A stretch of DNA of 37,726 nt from an uncultured Dorea sp. (GTDB lineage: Bacteria > Bacillota > Clostridia > Lachnospirales > Lachnospiraceae), in contig CAMSTW010000033.1 in NCBI GenBank assembly GCA_947063855.1, forward strand, positions 1 to 37,726, in the 5' to 3' direction. The notes under the pieces are model-generated. The model made no database searches. It was not told the origin of the DNA and worked only from the letters and a program-made list of their open reading frames with translations. A program made the position numbers and the translations under genes. Shown here one piece after another: positions 17,335 through 21,505 of this stretch; the first letter of the stretch is position 1, and each line of letters opens with the position of its first letter.

Positions 17335-19944
17335 CTATCCGGATTGCCGAGGAAATGTGATGGTAACCCGGAACAGATCTCCGTCCAGATACAGTTCGAA
17401 CCGCCCCCCCTGCATCTCAGTCAGGGTCTTGGCAATGGAAAGCCCAAGTCCGCTTCCTTCCGTCCCTCTGGATATATCCCCCCGGATGAACCGTTCCGTC
17501 AGCTCATCAGCCGGGATGTTCAGCGGCTGGTCTGAGATATTCTTCAGGCTGAACACCGCGCAGTGCTCCGCCGTATAGAGGTCCGCGTAGACCCTCGTCC
17601 CCTTCATCGCATATTTCGCCGCATTATTGTAGATATTCGCAAGTATACGCCACAACTGCCTGCCGTCTACACGGATGATCAGCTCCTCATCCGGCAGGGT
17701 CATCACCTCGTTAAGCTCCTGTGCCTTGAACTTCTCCGCAAACTCTCCGCTGGTCTGCTGTATCATCTCAACAAAATTAATATCCATATACTCAAGAGTA
17801 ATATTTCCCGAGCTTACCTTGGACGCTTCCACCACGTCCTCCGTCAGTGTCTTGAGGCGCTGTGACTTCTCTTCCAGTACTTCGATATACCGCCTAAGCT
17901 TCGGATCTTCAAAATCCTCCTGCTTCAGAAGGCTTACATAATTGATGATAGAGGTCAGCGGCGTCTTGATGTCGTGAGATACATTGGTAATAAGATCCGT
18001 CTTAAGACGCTCGCTCTTCACACTCTTGGCCAGAGCAGTGTCAAGCCCCTGTCCGATGGAGTTGATCTTCTCCGCGATACTTCTCTGCTCCTCCCCCAGA
18101 CCGTTAAGCGGTATCTTATAATCCACCTCGCCTCCGGCAATCTTCTTTACCCCGGTATCAATCCGCTGTCTTCCGACCGCCTGCCGGATCAGATAGATGA
18201 ATATCACCGTCTCTCCCGCGAACATCATAAGAATCGCCAGCCCGCTTCCGTTTCGCAGTACCGCAATCCAGTGGACGGCCACAAAGAGTCCGAACACCAG
18301 GACCGCCTTCCAGACCGCATGCAGATTGCCCGACGCCATCCTTGCAAATGCGATCAGGCTTCTAAGAATACTGTTCTTCCACATCGTCCCGGCTTTCAGC
18401 CTTCTCACCAGACTCAGATATCCCATAAGGAACATTCCGCAGGTATATACCGCCATGGCTGCCGCATACAGCAGATTCCCATATATCCAGGTGCCTCCGT
18501 AATATCCCGCATCACTCTCTGCCATCATGGCTTCGCCATAATATGACAGTTCCCGGAGCATCACCGGGGAATTGCCGGCCGCGATTCCTATCACAGCCAT
18601 CGGAACCACCCACAGAACGATTACGGCGGCTGCCGCCGCCTCCGTCTTCCATTCGTCAAACCAGCTCAGGTGCAGCTGCTCATCCAGATTGTTCCGTCCC
18701 GCCACTGCCGTCAGCCAGATTAATATAACAAAGAACAGAATCCCCGACAGAATCACCAGTGCAGACATCCAGTACACGGCCGGCATGTATCTGTCATAGG
18801 TATCCGCCTCCATATAGAACGTATCCTTAATCGGATACTCTGTATCTACGCCTACGGCAAAGACAAACCTTCTCTTCTCCCCGCTCATGCCTCTGATCTC
18901 ATTTCGAAAATCCTGGGCGGAAATGTCCTTAATATTGGACTCAAAATCCTCAAGCTCAGGCCTTACAAGCGCATATTTCCCCAGCTTCCTGAACTGGTCC
19001 AGGTTCTTCTCAAGTCTCGAATACTCCGCATATTCTCTCCGGTTCGTGTACACCTGTCCTGTCTGCGTATCTGCAAACAGATATGCCAGATTCGTATCGC
19101 CCTCTTTATAAGCGTCCGCCTGTTTGTCATAGAAAATCTTCTGGTCGCCCAGTATATAGACCGTATTCATCAGCATATCGTAGATGTCATTCAGGCGTCC
19201 GTTCCACACAGGATTGTCATTGGCCACCTGCATCACGCTCTGCGCCCCGGCCGGAGGGTACTTCTCCTCTATCCATCTGCCGTCATAGCTCCAGCAGTCG
19301 ATATACACAACCTTCCCTTCCCTGTCCTGAAGTCCCTTGAAAGGCGTGTCTGCGACATTCTCAAAGCTTCCGTCGCACAGCTCGTTCAGAATATCCTCTT
19401 CGGAGATCCCCGAATCATCTGTCACAATCACAAACCGCAGTTCCCCGCTGTCAATCATTCTCCTGAATTCACTGTAGTAGTAATAGTGGTAAGTATCGTC
19501 AGATTTTTTACATACGATGATATTATCCTCTATCTGTCCCTGTTCCGAATAAGGATCGTATCCCTCTTTGATCCAGCTTTCTCCCCATTCGCTGAGATCC
19601 CCCAGCCGGTACGCCAGTCCGTTAAAGTCTCCTTCAAAATCCTCCATCCCCTCCACATATCTCTGGATGTCTATGAGCTTATCCGGATCATAGACGCCGT
19701 CGGTCTCGAACAATTCACGCCTTCTAAGTCCCTCCAGCAGCTCGATGCTTGTATTAAGCAGTTCTCCCCGAAAACGGCTTGTATCCTCGTACCTGCGGGG
19801 CATTTTCCCTGACATCACTTCATCCCACAGTACCGGATATGCCGTAAGCCACAGATAACTTACGACAGCCGCCGCCAGAAGCACGTGCTCCAGAACAATC
19901 AGAACCCCTTTCGTAAGCATTGACTTATACCATTGACGCTTCAT
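17335..19944 (-). CDS. Large multi-span sensor histidine kinase
   Basis: An 869-residue kinase. One helix near residues 15-37 precedes a ~340-residue extracytoplasmic domain, then several transmembrane helices between about 390 and 590. A HAMP-like linker (GGEVDYKIPLNGLGEE) follows. The kinase core has SHDIKTPLTSIINYVSLL with phospho-His657, an N-box around RILANIYNNAAKYA and a G-box GTEGSGLGLSIAKTL. AAGGGGG lies just before the ATG. The unusually large outer domain suggests a protein or cell-wall ligand, but nothing identifies it. It is encoded 12 bp behind its response regulator, and the methyltransferase and 812-residue protein follow on the same strand after an 83-bp gap. Confidence 0.9.
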   Translation of the reverse strand: MKRQWYKSMLTKGVLIVLEHVLLAAAVVSYLWLTAYPVLWDEVMSGKMPRRYEDTSRFRGELLNTSIELLEGLRRRELFETDGVYDPDKLIDIQRYVEGMEDFEGDFNGLAYRLGDLSEWGESWIKEGYDPYSEQGQIEDNIIVCKKSDDTYHYYYYSEFRRMIDSGELRFVIVTDDSGISEEDILNELCDGSFENVADTPFKGLQDREGKVVYIDCWSYDGRWIEEKYPPAGAQSVMQVANDNPVWNGRLNDIYDMLMNTVYILGDQKIFYDKQADAYKEGDTNLAYLFADTQTGQVYTNRREYAEYSRLEKNLDQFRKLGKYALVRPELEDFESNIKDISAQDFRNEIRGMSGEKRRFVFAVGVDTEYPIKDTFYMEADTYDRYMPAVYWMSALVILSGILFFVILIWLTAVAGRNNLDEQLHLSWFDEWKTEAAAAAVIVLWVVPMAVIGIAAGNSPVMLRELSYYGEAMMAESDAGYYGGTWIYGNLLYAAAMAVYTCGMFLMGYLSLVRRLKAGTMWKNSILRSLIAFARMASGNLHAVWKAVLVFGLFVAVHWIAVLRNGSGLAILMMFAGETVIFIYLIRQAVGRQRIDTGVKKIAGGEVDYKIPLNGLGEEQRSIAEKINSIGQGLDTALAKSVKSERLKTDLITNVSHDIKTPLTSIINYVSLLKQEDFEDPKLRRYIEVLEEKSQRLKTLTEDVVEASKVSSGNITLEYMDINFVEMIQQTSGEFAEKFKAQELNEVMTLPDEELIIRVDGRQLWRILANIYNNAAKYAMKGTRVYADLYTAEHCAVFSLKNISDQPLNIPADELTERFIRGDISRGTEGSGLGLSIAKTLTEMQGGRFELYLDGDLFRVTITFPRQSG

Positions 19945-19956
19945 ATATCCCCCTTT

Positions 19957-20652
19957 CTACAGCTTCTCCACCTTATAACCGACTCCCCACACCACCTTGA
20001 GGTAGCGTGGCTCCTTCGGATTGATCTCTATCTTCTCACGGATATGCCTGATATGGACCGCAACCGTGTTGTCCACGCCGATGGCGTCCTCGTTCCAGAT
20101 ATTCTCATAGATCTGGTCGATGGAAAAAACCTTTCCCTGATTCTTCATCAGCAACAACAGGATGTTGTACTCGATCGGCGTAAGCCTGACCGGTTCGCCG
20201 TCCACCGTCACCTCTTTCAGATCGTCGTTGATGGCAAGGCCCCCCACCTCATATACCGCCTGGTTCGAATGTTCAGCCGTACTTCCAAGCTGTGTATACC
20301 GGCGCAGCTGGGACTTGACTCTGGCTACCAGTTCCAGAGGGTTGAAGGGCTTGGTCACATAGTCGTCCGCCCCCACGTTTAGTCCCAGTATCTTGTCCGC
20401 ATCCTCTGATTTGGCGGACAGGATAATGATCGGCATATTGTTCTGTTCCCGGATCTTAAGGGTAGCCCTGATTCCATCAAGCTTAGGCATCATCACGTCG
20501 ATCACCAGAAGATCTACCGTATGTTCCTTAAGCACCTTCAGCGCCTCCTCGCCGTCATACGCTTTCAATACCCGATACCCCTCCTGGGTCAGGTAAATGT
20601 CTATAGCTTCCACAATCTCTCTGTCATCATCACATACTAATATCTTAGACAT
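19957..20652 (-). CDS. OmpR-family response regulator
   Basis: A 231-residue receiver plus winged-helix regulator paired with the large kinase. The acidic pocket is D8-D9-D10, the phospho-acceptor D52 (VIDVMMPKLDG), and KPFNPLEL carries the conserved Lys. The output domain ends HIRHIREKIEI and VWGVGYKVEKL. It has a near-perfect Shine-Dalgarno, GGGAGGTGATG, before the ATG. Its promoter region is shared with the divergent Spo0A-like gene and includes one TTCTTAAG (20717-20724), the same core as in the triple repeat at 21262-21291, so that array may be its target or a site for autoregulation; this is an inference. Confidence 0.93.
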   Translation of the reverse strand: MSKILVCDDDREIVEAIDIYLTQEGYRVLKAYDGEEALKVLKEHTVDLLVIDVMMPKLDGIRATLKIREQNNMPIIILSAKSEDADKILGLNVGADDYVTKPFNPLELVARVKSQLRRYTQLGSTAEHSNQAVYEVGGLAINDDLKEVTVDGEPVRLTPIEYNILLLLMKNQGKVFSIDQIYENIWNEDAIGVDNTVAVHIRHIREKIEINPKEPRYLKVVWGVGYKVEKL

Positions 20653-20754: not shown

Positions 20755-20821
20755 TGTCGGATAATGTCGAAGGATGTCGAAAAATGTCACTTTATGCCGA
20801 AAAATTACTGTATTTGTCACA
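20755..20821 (+). promoter_or_regulatory. Tandem array of Spo0A-box-like heptamers at exact 10-bp spacing
   Basis: The Spo0A box consensus is TGTCGAA. Heptamers begin at 20755 (TGTCGGA, 6/7), 20765 (TGTCGAA, 7/7), 20775 (TGTCGAA, 7/7), 20785 (TGTCACT, 4/7), 20795 (TGCCGAA, 6/7), 20805 (TTACTGT, degenerate) and 20815 (TGTCACA, 5/7). The 7-bp box plus 3-bp gap matches the tandem arrangement reported for Spo0A dimers. The last box ends about 39 bp before the predicted start of transcription of the Spo0A-like gene, a position suited to activation. Confidence 0.8.
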
Positions 20822-20847
20822 TTTTATTCTACACCCGTTATTTTCGT

Positions 20848-20853
20848 TATAAT
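20848..20853 (+). promoter_or_regulatory. -10 element of the Spo0A-like gene
   Basis: A perfect TATAAT. The corresponding -35 position (20825-20830, TATTCT) is poor, which fits a promoter depending on an activator bound at the adjacent box array. Confidence 0.55.
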
Positions 20854-20907
20854 GGGCTGTGTAGCATGCTTTTGTTTCTCAAAACGTAAGGCAATCGAGG
20901 ATTTACT

Positions 20908-21258
20908 ATGTTGAACACGGATATAGAATTTTTAATACGTTCACTTGGCATTGGCGCCACTTACCGTGGATACCGTTATCTGAGCTACGGACTACAATTA
21001 TGTCTGGAAAATGAAGATTACCTCCTCTCCGTCAGCAAGTTGTTATACCCACAGATTGCAGAACATTATTACACAACGAGCAGCAGTGTTGAGAGGGATA
21101 TCCGTACTGTTATCAAAGTGTGCTGGGACAGAGGAGATCAGAAACTCTTACAAGATATTGCATTGAGACCCTTATGCAACCGGCCTGCATCCGGCGAGTT
21201 TTTTGACATCCTTACTGCGCATTTGAAACATAAATCAATATCTACATCTTCGATTTAA
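20908..21258 (+). CDS. Stand-alone Spo0A C-terminal DNA-binding domain (no receiver)
   Basis: A 116-residue protein that aligns over its whole length with the effector domain of Spo0A, the master regulator of sporulation. Marks are LGIGATYRGYRYL (11-25 region, matching GVPAHIKGYLYL), SKLLYPQIAEHYYTT (43-57) and the recognition-helix segment SSSVERDIRTVIKVCW (58-73). The key VERxIR residues E62, R63 and R66 are kept, while the positions I recall as Arg211 and His218 in B. subtilis are Ser60 and Thr67. There is no receiver domain upstream; the ATG follows a CGAGG site by 7 bp. It should bind Spo0A-type boxes without phosphorylation control. The box array before it suggests autoregulation. It is not a truncated pseudogene by appearance, since it has its own promoter and start. 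Confidence 0.88.
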   Translation: MLNTDIEFLIRSLGIGATYRGYRYLSYGLQLCLENEDYLLSVSKLLYPQIAEHYYTTSSSVERDIRTVIKVCWDRGDQKLLQDIALRPLCNRPASGEFFDILTAHLKHKSISTSSI

Positions 21259-21261
21259 AGT

Positions 21262-21291
21262 TTCTTCGCAAGTTCTTAAGCCCTTCTTAAG
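21262..21291 (+). promoter_or_regulatory. Triple 11-bp direct repeat, response-regulator-type binding array
   Basis: TTCTTCGC (21262), TTCTTAAG (21273-21280) and TTCTTAAG (21284-21291) recur every 11 bp, the spacing at which OmpR/PhoB-type regulators bind in tandem. It starts just after the Spo0A-like stop codon. A TATACT at 21344-21349 is a possible -10 downstream. Confidence 0.55.
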
Positions 21292-21355
21292 GATCTTCCT
21301 TTTTCTTTTATGGAATCCTCATACTTTGGACATAATTATCTCTTATACTTGTATT

Positions 21356-21505
21356 CAGATAGTTGGCCGCGGCCACTATCTCCCCTCAACAAAGTACCGC
21401 ATCAGCAAGGTTGTCAGGATGATGCGCACTTTACTCTCATTCCTTTAGATTAGATAATAACAGCGAACCCCGCCGGCCCTATGGTCCGCGGGGTTTCGTT
21501 GTTTC
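21356..21505 (+). ncRNA. Candidate small RNA between a repeat-controlled promoter and a terminator
   Basis: The interval between the 11-bp repeats and the terminator has no convincing ORF; the longest ATG frame lacks a ribosome site. It begins with a hairpin (21357-21381, AGATAGT... pairing with ACTATCT around GGCCGCGGCC, one bulge) and ends in the terminator hairpin. A transcript of about 145 nt is predicted if TATACT at 21344 works. This is inference from layout only. Confidence 0.35.
21461..21505 (+). terminator. Strong terminator, probably bidirectional
   Basis: CGAACCCCGC (21464-21473) pairs with GCGGGGTTTCG (21488-21498), and the inner GGCC/GGTCC and outer AACA/TTGTT extend the stem. 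A T-rich tail follows on the plus strand. It stands between the Spo0A-like locus and the convergent phosphopantetheinyl transferase gene. Confidence 0.85.

Follow-up and report, generated by a model that had tools for sequence, protein, structure and literature searches.

What does a Spo0A DNA-binding domain do when it is encoded without a receiver domain, by a gene that lies directly behind a row of Spo0A-binding sites (0A boxes)? We addressed this question for a locus in a 37,726-nucleotide stretch of DNA from an uncultured Dorea species (the window), and for its relatives in the genus and in the family Lachnospiraceae. To our knowledge, sporulation control in gut Lachnospiraceae has been little studied.

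The stand-alone gene encodes a receiver-less Spo0A effector domain

The gene (20908..21258, + strand) is an open reading frame for a protein of 116 aa that matches the Pfam profile of the Spo0A effector domain. It is preceded by a probable ribosome-binding site, GAGGAT (20897..20902, +), recognised by its sequence and also the majority consensus of the aligned loci. Residues 7-106 of the protein aligned to positions 2-104 of the 104 positions of PF08769 (Spo0A_C) with 104.1 bits (cut-off 25, E 4.6e-30), and the Pfam search returned no match to a receiver domain. Against TIGR02875, the Spo0A equivalog model, the protein scored 79.3 bits, well short of the cut-off of 200, and matched only profile positions 148-258 of 262. 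Its PDB relatives were 1fc3 and 1lq1 (E about 2e-20), and the nearest named records came from Sporofaciens musculi, Dorea sp. 5-2 and related Lachnospiraceae. Judged by these matches the protein is, as originally predicted, a complete receiver-less Spo0A effector domain, distinct from Spo0A itself; a separate full-length Spo0A was found in the same genome on contig C101 (assembly of 136 contigs, 84% complete). In seven comparisons pN was about 0.09-0.11 and pS 0.73-0.85 (the latter near saturation), which indicates that the protein is under purifying selection. A structure prediction gave a mean pLDDT of 56.3 and was left out of the interpretation. The protein was also matched (1.5e-26) by phrog_24603, a phage family of unknown function with 111 positions; stand-alone Spo0A domains therefore seem to occur in phages as well.

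A long array of 0A-type boxes at 10-bp intervals precedes the gene

Upstream of the gene, seven heptamer positions of the 0A-box type TGTCGAA follow one another every 10 bp (20755..20821, +): TGTCGGA at 20755, TGTCGAA at 20765 and 20775, TGTCACT at 20785, TGCCGAA at 20795, TTACTGT at 20805 and TGTCACA at 20815. The original prediction of two perfect and four partial heptamers (4-6 of 7) at exact 10-bp intervals was borne out, the seventh being a poor match (2 of 7). Tandem 0A boxes have a 10-bp spacing, as seen in the structure of a tandem site, and the TGTCGAA-type boxes found here have that same centre spacing. The chain score (log-odds) of the array was 27.1 at period 10 vs 7.1 at periods 8, 9, 11 and 12, and none of 300 dinucleotide shuffles equalled it. 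A scan of the whole window for two-box sites with 3 mismatches found 5 against 3.07 expected, a count reached by 22 of 100 shuffles. It is by its length and phase, rather than by its box pairs, that the array stands out.

We scored 47 upstream regions in the same way, 11 of them from the genus (L017, L018 and L019 being nearly identical). The set leaves out the mobile-type loci L023-L030, duplicate loci from two collections, receiver-truncated Spo0A genes, L113 (whose contig ends just upstream), L041, L166, L191 and L192. All 11 genus orthologues had the array, and in no case did any of 300 shuffles match the observed chain score, as had been expected of an array above chance. The mean chain score of the genus regions was 19.96 at period 10 and 6.8-7.0 at periods 7-9 and 11-13; the opposite strand averaged 5.86 and shuffled regions 4.38 (sd 0.36). 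The insignificant pair scan of the window, taken alone, would have allowed the array to be a product of chance or a low-complexity repeat. Conservation, period specificity and the shuffles rule this out for the genus, and we give it practically no credence.

The array keeps a fixed register to a putative -10 element

The prediction that the gene has its own promoter held in part. A putative -10 element, TATAAT (20848..20853, +), was unchanged in 13/13 aligned loci, but no recognisable -35 lay at spacers of 16-18 bp, where the best matches in the 11 genus loci and L038 were 1-3 of 6 (chance mean 2.55). L039 and L116 had a 4-of-6 match at these spacers. At a 15-bp spacer a 5-of-6 match was present in L020, L013 and L022 (3/11 genus loci), and at 19 bp a 4-of-6 match in the near-identical L017-L019; some of the promoters may therefore work without an activator.

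The register of the boxes was determined from an alignment of 11 loci (the window, nine genus orthologues and L038, with L017 omitted). The array positions lay 33, 43, 53, 63, 73, 83 and 93 bp upstream of TATAAT, and each locus had 2 to 5 in-register heptamers matching at least 5/7. The mean match was 4.6 of 7 in register and 0.94-1.97 in shifted registers. Positions 53 (6.36 of 7) and 73 (6.27 of 7) were strongest, and positions 93 (2.91 of 7) and 43 (3.27 of 7) weakest; the outermost, 93, was box-like in 3/11 loci, and at 43 a different word, TTAC, was retained. The TATAAT site is thus a putative promoter only. We infer that it is an activator-dependent sigma-A promoter, since the -10 is good, a consistent -35 is missing and boxes lie just upstream in fixed helical register.

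Phased boxes mostly remain where the divergent neighbour differs

On the other side of the array lies a divergent gene for a VanR-like OmpR-family response regulator (19957..20652, -), adjoined by a histidine kinase gene (17335..19944, -), both assigned by profile match. VanR and VanS were the closest models for the pair, at scores below their cut-offs. The regulator was 91-94% identical in the genus and L038 and 86-88% in L114 and L039, and the first 300 residues of the kinase were only 39-57% identical. The divergent regulator gene is the immediate neighbour in the genus, in L038 and in L114, so the array might serve this two-component system rather than the stand-alone gene. However, phased boxes still precede the stand-alone gene in L039 and L116, where a lysozyme-like gene (named by eye) intervenes, and in L118 and L178, where no VanR-like regulator was found in the fetched flanks. 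In addition, the boxes hold their fixed register to the -10 of the stand-alone gene, and words of another type, CTTAAG, lie upstream of the regulator. We therefore consider it very improbable that the array serves the VanR-like system, which is probably not part of the switch. The boxes mostly stay with the stand-alone gene when the divergent neighbour changes, and their position suits control of that gene. L115, in which the divergent neighbour is lysozyme-like (by eye), had one box only before the stand-alone gene.

Phased arrays occur outside the genus and before other genes

The expectation that the array would precede orthologues in related genomes, upheld in full within the genus, was upheld in about half of the cases outside it. 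Among 36 non-genus stand-alone Spo0A_C genes, mostly from the same family, 17 had p<=0.05 and 19 p>0.05 (p-values uncorrected, and the genes not independent, several coming from one genome). Eight of the 17 were at the test floor, and L115 and L130 were included through a single perfect box only. The mean chain score of the non-genus genes was 7.63 at period 10 vs 5.4-5.8 at other periods. Upstream of full-length spo0A (52 regions, guessed starts) there was a mild excess, i.e. 8.37 at period 10 vs 6.5-7.3.

An exclusive link between array and stand-alone gene had to be rejected, since triple arrays precede other genes in both the genus and the family. A family survey returned 18 triple-array rows in 12/397 genomes (reversed control 0), only 2 of which (in G000 and G007) precede a stand-alone gene; the other loci that were read (12 loci, with as much as 1.5 kb of flank) showed no Spo0A_C frame. 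Loosened to 2 mismatches, the triple pattern returned 32 rows in the genus, 12 of them at the stand-alone locus (reversed control 11), and the other sites included a comM-like gene and a small protein, both named by eye. All 5 zero-mismatch hits in the genus lay before the stand-alone gene, but as the pattern was written with the orthologues already in view they restate the conservation. For the two-box pattern, whose reversed control was poor and often above the real pattern, the 5 matches in 16 genomes without a Spo0A_C match vs 20 in 16 genomes with a strong Spo0A are only suggestive.

Two further sets of boxes were seen. A long phased 0A-type array with a TATAAT downstream precedes a gene for a 68-aa protein in L077 (~1491-1560; G006:C1:41466 on). 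G178 (1.5 Mb, 86% complete), which has one divergent Spo0A_C protein and gave no SpoIVA match, had 20 two-box matches vs 2 in the control; many of the matches (on C2, C11, C51, C57, C84, C85 and C125) fall in overlapping runs of phased 0A-type boxes.

The stand-alone gene usually accompanies sporulation genes

Within the genus, the stand-alone orthologue and full-length Spo0A were each found in 11/12 genomes, the misses being in G004 (62% complete) and G009 (80%). We also compared 33 hand-picked, and therefore non-random, genomes, 22 of which carried a stand-alone gene scoring 80 bits or more. SpoIVA was found in 20/22, the exceptions being G009 (80% complete) and G272, which ties the class to sporulation. 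Full-length Spo0A was found in 14 of the 22, a short-frame main-type Spo0A in G071, G097 and G098, only partial matches in G135 and G143, and none in G009, G076 and G272. G135 and G143 were considered as cases of a stand-alone gene kept after loss of full-length Spo0A, but this was rejected, as both have partial Spo0A_C matches (positions 1-30, and 1-80 plus 67-104), apparently from genes truncated where a contig stops. G076 encodes five short-frame proteins and SpoIVA.

G272, which is listed as 100% complete, had only a Spo0A_C protein of stand-alone size, with no match to full-length Spo0A or SpoIVA; a partner is therefore not always needed. Its gene (L169, on G272:C11) directly follows a recN-like gene (recN by eye), which is the usual neighbourhood of spo0A, and a four-position 0A array lies elsewhere in the genome.

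Other forms of the domain were also seen. Within the genus, L023-L030 form a second, distant group of stand-alone Spo0A_C genes, with scores reaching about 65 bits and possibly located on mobile elements; on the gene strand upstream of seven of these loci the only 6-of-7 box was GGTCGAA in L025. Spo0A_C was present in multiple copies in G096 (9 matches) and G309 (11). At ten loci from other genera of the family (L045, L057, L058, L060, L061, L064, L065, L071, L148 and L151) the open frames of main-type Spo0A were only 180-221 aa long. Their receiver is apparently truncated or degenerate, whereas the effector domain is intact, with FGYT present in 10/10. These receiver-truncated and multi-copy genes suggest that phosphorylation-independent readers of 0A boxes may be common in the family.

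Presumed DNA contacts are mostly retained and a putative activation segment is changed

We take E213, R214 and R217 of Spo0A to be the base-contacting residues. They were present in 42/48, 42/48 and 46/48 stand-alone proteins, respectively, and the window protein has VERDIR. Elsewhere in the recognition helix the stand-alone class differed from full-length proteins at 211 (R to S/C/N), 215 (A to D/N) and 218 (H to T), so that specificity may have shifted. These class-wide changes favour a reading in which only full-length Spo0A~P recognises the array, the stand-alone protein having drifted to other sites, its gene being just one more Spo0A target, with a regulon of its own. The triple arrays before other genes, the full-length Spo0A of nearly all genus genomes and the mild period-10 excess upstream of spo0A point the same way. 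However, the three contact residues are mostly kept, and G272 has a four-position array with only the stand-alone-size protein, although its helix is of the VERAIRY type. On balance we regard recognition by Spo0A~P only as unlikely.

The second difference lies further along the domain. Full-length proteins (n=57) retained F236 in 56, G237 in 57, Y238 in 57 and T239 in 53, whereas the stand-alone proteins (n=48) had F236 in 7, G237 in 23 and Y238 in 16, and 45/48 were missing residues 241-243, with gap placement around 236-243 uncertain, as it differs between two alignments. The window subfamily has IALRP-like letters where full-length Spo0A has FGYT (236-239), and the window protein has no F236-V240 segment, reading IALRPL there and missing 241-243. 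In B. subtilis Spo0A, substitutions at S231, F236 and V240 reportedly impair sigma-A activation and leave repression unimpaired, and we assume that the F236-V240 segment is needed for sigma-A activation.

A possible feedback element that competes for 0A boxes

The original prediction allowed the protein to act on Spo0A either as a competitor or as an amplifier. Our preferred reading, held tentatively and at a little under an even chance, is that a receiver-less Spo0A paralogue reads 0A boxes phosphate-free within a feedback loop, most likely a negative one in which it is the competitor. Early in sporulation, Spo0A~P would bind the array cooperatively and so switch on the activator-dependent sigma-A promoter. 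The stand-alone protein would then occupy 0A boxes, including those of its own array, and would compete with Spo0A~P, so that the Spo0A regulon would be damped or timed. The lack of a receiver, together with loss of a segment that in Spo0A serves sigma-A activation, makes the competitor role the most likely. The earlier suggestion that phosphorylation would not be needed finds support by analogy, since the DNA-binding domain of Spo0A, when isolated, needs no phosphorylation to bind 0A boxes (PMC3485338). Cooperative binding would be consistent with a model of the B. subtilis spo0A promoter in which attraction between occupied boxes is inferred (PMC12090719). In one model in that source the 0A boxes at B. 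subtilis spo0A are mainly repressive, so the position of the array alone is no proof of activation.

The alternative is an amplifier, i.e. a stand-alone protein that uses the array to activate its own promoter and also activates Spo0A targets, in a phosphate-free positive loop. The array is activator-like in its position and in fixed register with the -10, a -35 is lacking at 16-18 bp, and an isolated Spo0A domain is free of the inhibitory receiver (PMC3485338). Similarly wired autoregulated activators exist, e.g. VipR of B. thuringiensis, from an unrelated family (PMC9430311). Against this, the near-invariant F236-T239 segment is changed and residues 241-243 are lost, and a purely positive loop that receives no input would be prone to locking on. 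We therefore consider the amplifier fairly unlikely and the competitor more likely of the two.

Extending the competitor reading, one could propose a Lachnospiraceae class of phosphate-independent receiver-less Spo0A paralogues with self-addressed phased arrays, on which a cooperative filament would form along one face of the DNA and act as a brake or timer of sporulation. This extension is possible, but we regard it as doubtful. The locus joins a natural, conserved, receiver-less effector domain to a self-located, register-locked array. It offers a possible feedback element that can be tested directly, and a setting found in nature for the study of how Spo0A binds cooperatively to long arrays.

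Comparison with known systems

The Spo0A domain, 0A boxes, the use of tandem boxes and spo0A autoregulation are already known. The window protein shares with the effector domain of Spo0A from Bacillus and Clostridia (1lq1, 1fc3) the domain itself, the base-contacting residues and the box consensus. It differs in having no receiver, in the changed F236-T239 and missing 241-243, and in being encoded in addition to full-length spo0A. Like B. subtilis spo0A with its boxes 0A1-0A4, the locus has a Spo0A-type gene behind several 0A boxes; in PMC12090719, however, the regulator is full-length and phosphorylated and four sites are described, compared with up to six box-like positions in one 10-bp register here. 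The laboratory Spo0A-DBD proteins are likewise isolated domains that bind 0A boxes phosphate-free, but they are constructs (PMC3485338), whereas the stand-alone gene is natural and conserved. VipR also stands alone, is positively autoregulated and has a putative target that immediately precedes a sigma-A -10, but it belongs to another family, with AtxA/Mga homology, and its authors found no 0A box there (PMC9430311). A natural stand-alone Spo0A effector domain was not found among the titles and abstract openings listed in our literature search, whose scope leaves out most subscription journals, nor in the available parts of PMC6136694 and PMC3416734. In the literature searched we found no precedent for a natural stand-alone effector-domain gene with a phased, register-locked array.

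A candidate small RNA lies downstream

Directly downstream of the stand-alone gene (21270-21500, +) is a region with a CTTAAG-N5-CTTAAG direct repeat (21275..21291, +), recognised in the sequence, a conserved TATACT, a GATAGT/ACTATC hairpin, a stretch rich in C (CTCCCC), a second hairpin of variable sequence and a stem that resembles a terminator. From the alignment and the predicted structure, the conserved hairpins and this stem point to a candidate small RNA (21357..21500, +). Changes on both sides were seen in 12/28 pairs across 11 aligned loci, with 0/500 shuffles as high, the structure having been predicted from the same alignment that was used for this count. Sliding the pairs by -3 also gave 12, but with 37% of cells paired vs 90%. 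No Rfam family scored above threshold, the one match over the candidate reaching 17.5 bits vs 100 (E 0.032). A conserved word of the candidate, searched as a gapped pattern, was found in 11/12 genus genomes (22 rows, control 3; e.g. G000:C63:4968-4987). Nine of these genomes had it twice, so the candidate may have a second copy at another place in the genome.
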